From: Thioalkalivibrio denitrificans
GTDB taxonomy: Bacteria > Pseudomonadota > Gammaproteobacteria > Ectothiorhodospirales > Ectothiorhodospiraceae
Reading direction: 5' to 3'
Length of the DNA: 51,608 bases
Assembly: GCF_002000365.1 (NCBI RefSeq)
Contig: NZ_MVBK01000033.1
Coordinates: 1-51,608, forward strand
Position numbers and translations under genes: made by a program. Below, piece by piece: positions 14,076 through 29,539 of this stretch. A model generated the notes under the pieces. That model was not told where the DNA came from. It ran no database searches and saw only the letters and a list, made by a program, of their open reading frames with translations. Each line of letters begins with the position of its first letter. Positions within the stretch are counted from its first letter, which is position 1.

Positions 14076-15248
14076 ATGACTCGGGCTGACTCACACACGG
14101 CCACAGTGCTTGCCCTGGGCAGCACCCAGACCCTGGCCTGGGGCACCACCTACTACCTGCCCGCGATCCTGGCCCTGCCCATGGCCCGTGAGTTCGACAT
14201 CCCGGCCAGCTGGGTGTTCGGCGCGTTTTCCGCGGCATTGGTTCTTGCGGCCTTGTTCGGACCGCTTGCGGGACGCCGTATCGACCGCTACGGCGGCCGC
14301 CATGTGCTGGCCGGATCCAACGTGATATTCGCTTTTGGCCTGCTGGTCCTGGGCCTTGCCCAGGACCCTGCTTGGATGGTCACCGGCTGGCTCGTCATCG
14401 GGCTGGGCATGTCCATGGGGCTCTACGAGGGCGCCTTTTCCACTTTGGCCGCCATCTATGGACAGAAGGCACGCGGGGCCATCGTCGGCGTCACCCTCAT
14501 GGCTGGCTTCGCGAGCACCGTCTTCTGGCCGATTACCGCCTGGATCGAGGCCGGGGCCGGGTGGCGGACGGCATGCCTCGTCTGGGCCGCCGCACACCTG
14601 TTCGTGGGGCTGCCGATCAACCGGTTTCTCCTGCCCCGCAAGGTCCAGCCCCCTGCGCCCCCGCGCGAACTGCATACCACGGGTTCCGTGGTGCTCGACC
14701 GCTCCCTGCTCCTGATCGCCTTCGTGTTCGCCATCGCCTGGTTCATCGGCACCGCCATGGCCGCCCACCTGCCGCGGCTGCTTCAGGATGCGGGCCTGAC
14801 GCCCGCCGCAGCCGTGGGCGTCGCCGCGCTGATAGGGCCCGCCCAGGTCGCGGCCCGGCTGTTCGACTACCTGGTGCTGCGCCGTTTTCACCCTCTGCTT
14901 GCCAGCAAGCTGGCCAGTCTTGCGCATCCCTTGGGCGCCGCGGCCATCATGGTGCTCGGTGCGCCGGCCTCCGTGTTTTTCACCCTGCTCCACGGCGCCG
15001 GTCACGGCATCCTCTCCATCGCCAAGGGGACCGTGCCGCTGGCCATCTTCGGCCCCCGGGACTACGGCCATCGCATGGGGCTCCTGAGCGCGCCGGCGCG
15101 ATTCGCCCAGGCCGGGGCGCCGTTCGTGTTCGCGCTGCTCATCGAGCGTTTCAACATGGGCGTGCTGGTGATCTCGTCCGCGCTCGGCCTGTGCGCGTTT
15201 GCGGCCCTGTGGATACTGGGCAGAACCGCGCAAACTCCGTCAAATTGA
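14076..15248 (+). CDS. MFS transporter
   Basis: A 390-residue major facilitator with about 12 predicted membrane helices in two halves. The loop between helices 2 and 3 carries the MFS signature in the form GPLAGRRIDRYGGRH. A cytoplasmic linker (LLPRKVQPPAPPRELH) separates the halves. There is no substrate-specific motif I can read. It is divergent from dusA and followed after 104 bp by glutamate dehydrogenase on the same strand. The stop lies within a short palindrome ccgtcaaattgacgg (15237-15251). Confidence 0.85.
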   Translation: MTRADSHTATVLALGSTQTLAWGTTYYLPAILALPMAREFDIPASWVFGAFSAALVLAALFGPLAGRRIDRYGGRHVLAGSNVIFAFGLLVLGLAQDPAWMVTGWLVIGLGMSMGLYEGAFSTLAAIYGQKARGAIVGVTLMAGFASTVFWPITAWIEAGAGWRTACLVWAAAHLFVGLPINRFLLPRKVQPPAPPRELHTTGSVVLDRSLLLIAFVFAIAWFIGTAMAAHLPRLLQDAGLTPAAAVGVAALIGPAQVAARLFDYLVLRRFHPLLASKLASLAHPLGAAAIMVLGAPASVFFTLLHGAGHGILSIAKGTVPLAIFGPRDYGHRMGLLSAPARFAQAGAPFVFALLIERFNMGVLVISSALGLCAFAALWILGRTAQTPSN

Positions 15249-17357: not shown

Positions 17358-17971
17358 CTTGGCGGATCGGCCAGGTCCGGGAAGCGCTCCAGATCCAGAT
17401 CCTCCGGGCGATCCAGGTCGGGGAGCACCTCCAGACAACGGACATCCAGCCCGAGATCCTCGGCCCGCTTGCATGTCTCGACGAACACCCGGTCCGTGCC
17501 CCAGGGCATGTCCCTGAACAGTTCGGCCTCGGCCCGTCCGGCGCCGATCAGCACGTAACCGCCGTCCTCGGCCGGTCCGAGCACCAGGTCGGCCCCGGCG
17601 TCCAGCCAGGTCATGGCCCGGCGCAGATGATCAGCTGTCAGTGCCGGGCAATCCGTACCCGCGAGCACGGCATGTGTGCCGGCGCCGCGGGCATCGTTCA
17701 GGGCGCCATGCATGCGTGCCCCCAGGTCCCCGCCCGCCTGCAGGCGAAGGCGCACGTTGTAGCGCCTGGCACACTCGGTGAAGAAATCATCGCTCATGTC
17801 CGGCGTGCACCAAAGCTCCACCTCCGCCGGCGCCGCACTCCGGGCGGTCTCCAGGGTCCGGTGGATCAGGCGTTCGTGCAGGAGCGCCGCGCCCGCCGGA
17901 CCGAGCGCGGGAATCAGGCGGGTCTTGGTCTCTCCCGGCCGGGGGGCCCGCGCAAACACCTGGATACGCAT
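17333..17971 (-). CDS. DUF2064 / TIGR04282-type nucleotidyl- or glycosyltransferase-like protein
   Basis: A 212-residue GT-A-fold protein of the family annotated as 'TIGR04282 arsenosugar biosynthesis glycosyltransferase'. It has the N-terminal FARAPRPGETKTRL loop, which binds nucleotide in related enzymes, AVLAGTDCPALT, and the family hallmark GPAEDGGYVLIG followed by PWGTDRVFVET. The ATG at 17971 overlaps the stop of the upstream GT2 gene (TGATG). The C-terminal eight residues and stop are encoded by a REP-like hairpin, so the original end has probably been replaced. Substrate is unproven: the arsenosugar name is by association only. Confidence 0.85.
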   Translation of the reverse strand: MRIQVFARAPRPGETKTRLIPALGPAGAALLHERLIHRTLETARSAAPAEVELWCTPDMSDDFFTECARRYNVRLRLQAGGDLGARMHGALNDARGAGTHAVLAGTDCPALTADHLRRAMTWLDAGADLVLGPAEDGGYVLIGAGRAEAELFRDMPWGTDRVFVETCKRAEDLGLDVRCLEVLPDLDRPEDLDLERFPDLADPPRKPRGQSR

Positions 17972-18846
17972 CAGCGGTACCAACGGGCCAGTGTTTCCGG
18001 GCTCGCACCCAGCGCATAGGCGCCGCGCAGCCACCACATGAGCACGATGGTGCGCAGGATGCCTCGCGTTTCCCAGCGTCGGCTGGACGTGATCAGGCGC
18101 CGCCTCAGGCAGGCCGGGCGCCCGGCGTGGCGCTTGAGGCGCCGGCTCATGTCGATGTCCTCCATGAGCGGGATCTCCGCAAATCCCTTCACGGCATGAA
18201 AGACCTCGGCATGCATGAACAACCCCTGGTCACCGGTGGCAATGCCGGTCAGGCGCGAGCGCAGGTTCATGAGGGTTTCAACCACGCGCAACAGCGGATG
18301 GGCGCCGGACAATCGGACGTCGAACCGGCCCCAGGCCCGTCTGGCCAGGGCGGCCTCCATGAGCCGGTCGGCATCGGCGGGAACGCCGGAATCGGCGTGC
18401 AGGAACCACAATGCCCGACCGCGCGCCAGCCGGGCACCCGCATTCATCTGTAGGGCACGCCCGCGTGCGTGCTCCAGTATCCGGTCCACGCGGCCCTCTG
18501 CCCGTTTCAGCGTGTCGTCGCTGCTGCCGCCGTCCACCAGGATCACTTCACAGCCCCTTGAACGCAGGGGTTCAAGGGCGTCCAGCAACGCATCTAGCCC
18601 GCATATCTCACCACCGTTCGTAGCGAGGGCGTCGAGATGCCGCTGTGACGGGGCGCGCGGACCGGAAGACGGCGCAGGCGTAGCCGACACTACGTCAAGC
18701 CGGCTGGAGGGAGCACGCCCCGTCACAGCGAGCAGATCGGCGGCCGCAGTAGAAGGGCGGTGAGATATGCGGGCCAGGTTATGCCCTTCATTCAGGACCG
18801 GAATGATGACGGACAGCCACGGCGGCTCCTCGATCGCTGCACTCAC
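17971..18846 (-). CDS. GT2 glycosyltransferase (TIGR04283-type) carrying a 60-residue in-frame element insertion
   Basis: A 291-residue family-2 glycosyltransferase. The core reads VIIPVLNEGHNL, then VILVDGGSSDDT, LHADSGVP (the DxD-like site), SGAHPLLRVVE and IPLMEDIDMSRRLKR, all typical of TIGR04283 proteins. Residues about 25-84 interrupt the first helix and do not belong to the family. They are encoded by a palindromic element (18597-18774) whose 178 bp plus a 2-bp flank keep the frame open. Removing them gives about 231 residues and joins NEGHNL to DALLDALEPLRSRG with normal family spacing. The start is GTG, overlapping the upstream stop as GTGA. Activity with the insert is uncertain. Confidence 0.88.
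   Translation of the reverse strand: MSAAIEEPPWLSVIIPVLNEGHNLARISHRPSTAAADLLAVTGRAPSSRLDVVSATPAPSSGPRAPSQRHLDALATNGGEICGLDALLDALEPLRSRGCEVILVDGGSSDDTLKRAEGRVDRILEHARGRALQMNAGARLARGRALWFLHADSGVPADADRLMEAALARRAWGRFDVRLSGAHPLLRVVETLMNLRSRLTGIATGDQGLFMHAEVFHAVKGFAEIPLMEDIDMSRRLKRHAGRPACLRRRLITSSRRWETRGILRTIVLMWWLRGAYALGASPETLARWYR
18597..18774. mobile_element. MITE-like palindromic element inserted in frame in a coding gene
   Basis: Perfect 16-bp terminal inverted repeats (gcccgcatatctcacc at 18597-18612, ggtgagatatgcgggc at 18759-18774) enclose a second perfect 15-bp inverted pair (cgctgtgacggggcg at 18641-18655, cgccccgtcacagcg at 18716-18730). The plus-strand flanks are TA (18595-18596) and CA (18775-18776), fitting a TA target duplication with one later synonymous change in a Leu codon. 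The 178 bp plus 2 bp is 180, a multiple of three, and there is no stop in the gene's frame. It encodes no transposase. A shorter relative is at 29492-29529. Confidence 0.87.
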
Positions 18847-29461: not shown

Positions 29462-29489
29462 CGCACTTCCCGACTCACACCTCCCACTT
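29462..29489. repeat. Degenerate heptanucleotide array 5 (4 units)
   Basis: Units cgcactt, cccgact, cacacct, cccactt, related to the cccactt arrays at 22464 and 24005. It ends one base before the TA flank of the short palindromic element at 29492. The rest of the trxB-acyltransferase spacer (29329-29461) shows no gene. Confidence 0.5.
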
Positions 29490-29491
29490 TA

Positions 29492-29529
29492 GCCCGGATA
29501 TCTCACCGGGACCGGTGAGATATGCGGGT
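29492..29529. mobile_element. Core-only copy of the MITE-like element, flanked by TA
   Basis: The ends gcccggatatctcacc (29492-29507) and ggtgagatatgcgggt (29514-29529) match the 16-bp termini of the 18597-18774 element with one change each, separated by only gggacc. Both sides are flanked by TA (29490-29491 and 29530-29531), the expected duplication. The element contains an ATG at 29522 in frame with the next gene and a GGTGAG just before it, so it may offer an alternative start. Confidence 0.8.
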
Positions 29530-29539
29530 TAATCCTGGC

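Follow-up and report, generated by a model that had tools for sequence, protein, structure and literature searches.

The window, by which we mean the whole 51,608-nucleotide stretch of Thioalkalivibrio denitrificans DNA analysed here, carries on its minus strand a gene for a TIGR04283 family glycosyltransferase (GT2) that is interrupted in frame by a palindromic element. Both the family and the in-frame interruption had been called by an earlier reading made from the letters alone (below, the sequence-only reading) and both are confirmed: the product scores 258 bits against the TIGR04283 profile (cut-off 182) and the minus-strand frame is open across the element. The gene adjoins a TIGR04282 partner, the two forming an arsenosugar pair. 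The features of the locus, together with a second palindrome in the window, are as follows:

17971–18846, minus strand: TIGR04283 family GT2 gene, 291 amino acids, interrupted in frame at residues 25–84
18594–18597, no strand: left target-site duplication, CTAG
18597–18774, no strand: fold-back MITE, 178 bp (G...C, the limits given by the sequence-only reading); the core without the duplication is 18598–18773
18598–18612, plus strand: left terminal inverted repeat CCCGCATATCTCACC, an IS1380-type end
18617–18628, plus strand: subterminal motif TTCGTAGCGAGG, among the inner positions that vary least between lineages; it lies in an internal-loop region of the rod
18641–18658, plus strand: left arm of the inner stem, with covariation
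18713–18730, minus strand: right arm of the inner stem, with covariation
18744–18754, plus strand: subterminal motif CCGCAGTAGAA, on the facing side of the internal loop
18759–18773, minus strand: right terminal inverted repeat
18774–18777, no strand: right target-site duplication, CCAG (a single change from CTAG)
29489–29532, no strand: another palindrome of the same family, reduced to its two end repeats with almost no core (36-bp core at 29493–29528, TTAG and TTAA flanks)

The perfect 16-bp terminal inverted repeats at 18597–18774 (GCCCGCATATCTCACC) were reproduced, as was the inner inverted pair at 18641–18658 and 18713–18730 (18 nt, 94%, with a perfect 15-bp core). The flanks had previously been taken for a duplicated TA; they prove to be CTAG and CCAG, that is, a 4-bp duplication with one change, and the unit thus comprises a 176-bp core plus 4 bp, which bears out the earlier statement that 180 bp were gained with the GT2 frame left open. 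The element has no transposase, is shorter than 400 bp and is present in multiple copies, as befits a MITE.

An alignment with orthologues, proposed by the sequence-only reading as a way of finding the empty site, did find it. With the GT2 as query, 56 of 96 genomes gave a match at E 1e-10 (partial and element-only matches included), and 29 orthologue loci were fetched, one of which (L192) was left out on account of an internal stop. Residues 25–84 are missing from all 28 aligned orthologues, including those of four congeners, and the bordering residues are adjacent. The insertion is thus specific to the window's lineage among the genomes sampled. In gene direction the two junctions read CTG then G and CTA then G. 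The N-E next to the insert is a conserved part of the N-terminal motif of GT2, and some impairment of the window's enzyme is therefore conceivable. The host part of the gene has a dN/dS of 0.186 when compared with the orthologue of congener G001, and the value between two congeners without the insert is 0.168. An AlphaFold model of the interrupted enzyme has a mean pLDDT of 83, with 174 of 291 residues at 90 or above; residues 21–49 fall below 50 and ten-residue means are 30–66 over most of the insert, a low score being by itself no proof of disorder. The best PDB matches to the model in Foldseek are glycosyltransferases.

A search of the window's own genome (G000; 3.64 Mb in 167 contigs, 99.95% complete) with the 16-bp termini, a check that had also been suggested, gave 194 sites with two mismatches or fewer against none in the reversed control. 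BLAST with the whole element gave 82 matches, inverted self-matches counted, and 12 near full-length places at 92–100% identity, the window element among them. Among the end-repeat sites listed (the first 100 of the 194), 45 paired elements could be parsed in G000 loci; 14 of these contain N and 11 of the 31 N-free elements are exactly 178 bp long. Assembly gaps lie inside copies and several end repeats fall at contig ends, so the repeats seem to break the assembly. Each of five members of the genus has at least 21 end-repeat sites (at most one per genome in the reversed control) and, among 42 genomes from other genera of the same family, one has a single one-mismatch site; the distribution of the element is thus patchy. 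At least 113 stretches in named genomes carry TA plus the end repeat, and those listed belong to gammaproteobacterial records (Thioalkalivibrio, Ectothiorhodospiraceae and Halieaceae among them) and to MAGs labelled Gemmatimonadetes, Acidobacteriota, Holophagae and Myxococcales (a MAG label can be wrong for an individual contig). A profile of the insert peptide matched at least 22 of 369 genomes across the class and at least 20 of 272 genera; the 17 places opened from these matches were picked for long frames and give no rate.

Of 104 distinct paired elements shorter than 700 bp, 41 are exactly 178 bp: 11 in G000, 20 in one Ectothiorhodospiraceae MAG, three in congeners and seven in other lineages. 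Nine representatives at 90% identity or less show pairwise identities down to 47%, and six that differ further (below 85%) have a common rod-shaped fold, the 178-bp length and the hairpin recurring in MAGs assigned to several phyla. Across these six lineages 26 of 42 inner pairs have changed on both sides, against 10.7 in shuffles, none of 1000 of which reaches the observed figure; the fold was derived from the same six sequences as this count. Sliding the partner by 1–3 bases lowers the proportion of paired cells from 88% to 33–50%, and the most constant inner positions lie within internal loops. In a message the hairpin would amount to about -125 kcal/mol (RNA parameters). The 17 loci searched against Rfam gave no match at the gathering threshold, and two relaxed-threshold matches (E 0.002 and 1.9), both to miRNA precursor models, were set aside as likeness to a long hairpin. 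Palindromic families with the same ends and other cores also occur, of 256 bp (L109, L064, L017, L078), 208 bp (L076, L173), 242 bp (L077, L088) and, in some cases, longer; some are of equal length across several loci.

The ends point to the transposon family concerned. Two 1786-bp elements on an Arenicellales chromosome have these ends (15/15 and 14/15 bases shared with the window element) and encode an identical 475-amino acid transposase that matches PF13701 with 506 bits. Five plasmid relatives of this transposase were opened out of 3464 matching records, and three of the five have similar ends: an element annotated as IS1380 on Pseudomonas putida pKF715A (13/15 at each end, flanked by CTAG on both sides) and two unannotated elements, on the Rhizobium leguminosarum 23B plasmid (11 and 13/15, CTAG on both sides) and the Sinorhizobium fredii NGR234 plasmid (11 and 13/15, TTAG on both sides). 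In Acetobacter the element is flanked by TCGA on either side and its ends are more divergent; the ends of the R. leguminosarum Vaf10 element are different. Across 152 of the palindromic elements, some at related loci and hence not fully independent, the flanking tetramers are identical in 96 and unequal in 56. The outer bases agree between left and right (T with T at position 1, p 1e-6; A with A at position 4, p 3e-6), which argues for a 4-bp YTAR duplication; the 16 elements that have a T on the left and TA in both flanks nevertheless divide 8:8, which shows decay or imprecise repair to be common. Searches of G000, G001 (82% complete), G002 and G004 for a PF13701 transposase were negative, and two PF13701/IS1380 fragments in G003 were rejected as the mobiliser since their ends do not match. 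Judged by its ends and its 4-bp CTAG-type duplication, then, the window element is to be classed as an IS1380-type MITE and not as an IS630/Tc1-like one.

When inserted at CTA followed by G, the element adds 180 bp and is open in a single orientation and phase, the frame peptide being LARISHHPSTAAAD...LATNGGEICGL. Each of the 11 178-bp copies in G000 is open in exactly one of six frames, and of the 41 178-bp copies over the lineages (31 of them from two genomes) all but the Holophagae copy, hence 40, are open in that frame. Four of the five 256-bp copies in G000 have no open frame; the fifth has one, with 11 codons to the left. We rejected the open frame as proof of coding selection, the interiors being poor in stops in several frames; given the lack of selection on the frame, an open frame alone proves nothing. 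Nor did we use as evidence the rule that length plus 2 is a multiple of three, which holds for 25 of the 31 G000 elements free of N and for 41 of 70 at other loci, because the 178-bp class dominates it and it takes in the 256-bp elements too, most of which are closed.

Copies inside genes were sought via open frames only, so that disrupted genes are uncounted and no rate follows. Members of the family were found in frame in the following unrelated conserved genes, with homology on both sides of the insert unless stated otherwise:

G000: GT2
G000: DnaE2
G000: FolC (73-bp variant, 25 residues, at about residues 43–47 of Escherichia coli FolC)
G000: PepN (the short left side has 2.2 bits only but is colinear)
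Congener G003: KsgA, UvrA and NrdJ
Congener G002: CBU_0592 membrane protein (280-bp variant, 94 residues)
Congener G001: DnaE2 with two inserts, one of 208 bp (70 codons, duplication counted) and one of 259 bp (87 codons, likewise), L119:1-3054, minus strand
G060, outside the window's family: formate dehydrogenase alpha (ends eroded, frame intact)
G314, outside the window's family: MtfA, directly before HEFAH
G286, outside the window's family: DnaE2
Less sure, with one-sided homology or a position close to a terminus: AddB-like (G000); DUF255 and TolC-family (G003); GspJ-like (G004); APP1 (G314); LppC (G340); ABC_trans_aux lipoprotein (Acidobacteriota MAG)
Less sure: GlyQ–GlyS junction in G381, L344:1128-4199, plus strand

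Frames at L120:248-2647, L120:4179-4934, L127, L086 and L339, which have no family match, were not counted as genes, nor were those at L280, L283, L337, L338, L341–L343, L346, L347, L349, L351 and L352; L350 has a GDSL lipase match downstream of the copy only.

The folC gene is essential in E. coli. The interrupted FolC is the only one above the cut-off in G000, and its insert is absent from all four congeners. This folC (L249; C104:13754-13840 and 14992-15064) holds two copies: that of 73 bp in its interior and, at the 3' end, one of 87 bp, from which the terminal residues AGISHHRS derive. In G004, a single-contig genome, FolC lies in two neighbouring pieces in separate frames (C1:1349932-1351120), possibly a frameshift. 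The DnaE2 inserts, in different bacterial families, follow local PF07733 matches that end at profile position 169 (G000 and G001) and 173 (G286). In G381 the element sits between the end of GlyQ (profile position 291 of 293) and GlyS in one open frame; GlyQ and GlyS, the two subunits of glycyl-tRNA synthetase, may there be joined by a 60-residue linker of transposon origin, separate initiation of GlyS being possible also.

DnaE2 allows host and insert to be compared directly. The insert occupies the same site in G000 (178 bp) and G001 (208 bp), the 30-bp difference keeping the frame, and dN/dS is 0.156 for the host part (806 codons) and 1.01 for the aligned insert (60 codons, the alignment being poor in the middle). 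The DnaE2 insert thus appears to be about neutral and the host gene constrained; if the shared site reflects one ancestral insertion, the gene has been constrained with its insert since the two species split. Among 43 distinct copies from five congeneric genomes, 84 distinct interior substitutions comprise 21 synonymous and 63 non-synonymous changes and no stops, where 26.8, 56.6 and 0.6 are expected. There is no synonymous excess, and selection on the peptide within the genus is therefore unsupported. Sister copies standing in frame in conserved genes suggest that these proteins carry some 60 extra, mostly tolerated amino acids and that the insert is translated as part of its host proteins.

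Taken together, these results are best explained, with a probability that we put at about 0.84, by a non-autonomous, fold-back MITE of IS1380 type whose in-frame insertions are read through as tolerated spacers. An IS1380-family transposase acting in trans would recognise the CCCGCATATCTCACC ends and, to judge from ends and duplications, the 176-bp core would be inserted at a CTAG/YTAR tetramer with duplication of 4 bp, a net gain of 180 bp. Where the target is read as the leucine codon CTA followed by G, one orientation would give one open frame, the host gene would be read through and the product would be a host protein with a 60-residue loop rich in alanine, serine and proline. Such in-frame insertions would persist as nearly neutral spacers, other genic insertions presumably being lost. 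In the window it is the GT2 member of the arsenosugar pair that was hit, in a lineage not shared by the four sequenced congeners. The 178-nt hairpin and its fixed internal loops would be kept for the mobility or stability of the element and not for the peptide.

Several other explanations bear on parts of this scheme. The IS630/Tc1-mariner assignment favoured by the sequence-only reading, with duplication of TA, draws on TA being the most constant part of the flanks (present on both sides in 111 of 152 elements); the outer bases co-vary between left and right, however, so that the duplication is not one of TA alone, and matching ends with a PF13701 transposase belong to IS1380, and we find that assignment barely credible. 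A view of the interrupted GT2 as a dying gene whose in-frame state is accidental gains something from the insert's place beside a conserved motif. It is nonetheless unlikely, given that the host part's dN/dS of 0.19 is close to the 0.17 of the insert-free congener pair (the insertion being undated) and that the same family lies in frame in other conserved genes, the sole FolC above cut-off included. Removal of the insert before or during translation, by splicing, ribosomal hopping or an intein-like process, seems very unlikely: a hairpin as strong as this one could favour hopping, but the genic copies sit in the one open phase, which removal would make unnecessary (a weak point, the search being restricted to open frames).

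Might the 60-residue peptide itself be a selected, functional module spread by transposition? The common open frame in 40 of 41 178-bp copies (with 31 from two genomes) and the conserved peptide termini would suit that proposal. Conservation of the termini follows from the repeats, however, the interior is poor in stops in other frames too, and neither the substitution counts in the 43 copies (for synonymous changes and for stops alike) nor the dN/dS of about 1 in the shared DnaE2 insert favours it, and we consider it improbable. Rather doubtful, though worth entertaining, is the idea that the element acts in its own right as a structured RNA (or ssDNA), for example in transcripts, the genic copies then being incidental; this is compatible with the preferred reading of a read-through IS1380-type MITE. 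The 178-nt rod with fixed internal loops and the excess of pairs changed on both sides speak for such a function, whereas the lack of Rfam matches at the gathering threshold in the 17 loci speaks against it and a palindromic transposon could keep its pairing for mobility alone.

Beyond the reading of a MITE tolerated as a spacer lies a more speculative idea, offered tentatively and thought rather unlikely: that residence in genes has moulded the element's length and ends, the 180-bp gain, the CTA-then-G leucine target and the single stop-free phase making the element an insertable protein linker. It would recur in loops of core enzymes (DnaE2 in two families, about four profile positions apart), may in one genome have fused GlyQ with GlyS, and would give free-living bacteria a widely available means of acquiring new loops and fusions in their proteins.

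The window element works like the Rickettsia palindromic elements (RPEs), yet its ends and duplication make it an IS1380-type MITE. To our knowledge the mobiliser of RPEs is unknown. The proposal of an RPE-like coding MITE in a gammaproteobacterium accordingly survives in what concerns the many copies, the empty site and the in-frame copies elsewhere; its IS630/Tc1 (TA) part does not. RPEs are described as palindromes of 105–150 bp that lie in frame in unrelated conserved genes and have a conserved peptide and a long stem-loop (PMC10969869, PMC2229807), and their target duplication is tabled as '?' (PMC2229807). The likeness, drawn from such descriptions only, is that of an apparently translated palindrome, in frame in unrelated conserved genes, with a long stem-loop; the window element differs in its IS1380-type ends, CTAG duplication and 178-bp length, and its hosts range more widely, from Gammaproteobacteria to MAGs labelled Acidobacteriota. 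Intragenic REPs of the GTAG and CGTC types are likewise reported as in-frame palindromes in uvrA (in Thioalkalivibrio too), dnaE2 and recB; each unit measures 20–40 bp, the majority of those inside genes encode 20–30 residues and the GTAG families are linked to RAYT transposases (PMC3733652). The uvrA and dnaE2 gene types also host the element family described here, whose 178-bp unit is, however, bounded by YTAR duplications and IS1380-type ends and not by the GTAG ends of a 20–40 bp REP or REPIN as described there.

ERIC (RU-1), YPAL (RU-2) and the 107-bp Correia repeats are described as MITEs that carry an open frame and are fused to genes in phase, and the closed 155-bp Correia form as nearly always intergenic (PMC2229807); our 256-bp elements, four of five of which are closed, may be compared with that form. 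Those families occupy narrow host groups, and the passages of PMC2229807 on them make no link to IS1380. The insertion sequences of the IS1380 family have the same ends and 4-bp duplication as the window element; those opened here are about 1.65–1.8 kb long with a transposase, which the window element lacks. In-frame MITEs and palindromes as such are already known from RPEs, REPs, ERIC, YPAL, short Correia repeats and the QMITEs of Coxiella (PMC10969869, PMC2229807, PMC5896051), and a 2024 review among these sources calls a similar route in other prokaryotes conceivable. The papers found on IS1380 MITEs and CTAG and on in-frame MITEs and palindromes, judged by title, abstract start and passages (most subscription papers falling outside this scope), hold no description of the window element. 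The present system comes with a likely transposase family, target duplications, empty sites and an insert common to two species. It makes the tolerance of sudden 60-residue insertions, a possible acquisition of function by such inserts and the translation of a strong hairpin testable in ordinary laboratory hosts. Rickettsia, a reduced parasite, provides the best-known cases of selfish palindromes in frame; the family described here would be their free-living and more widely distributed counterpart.
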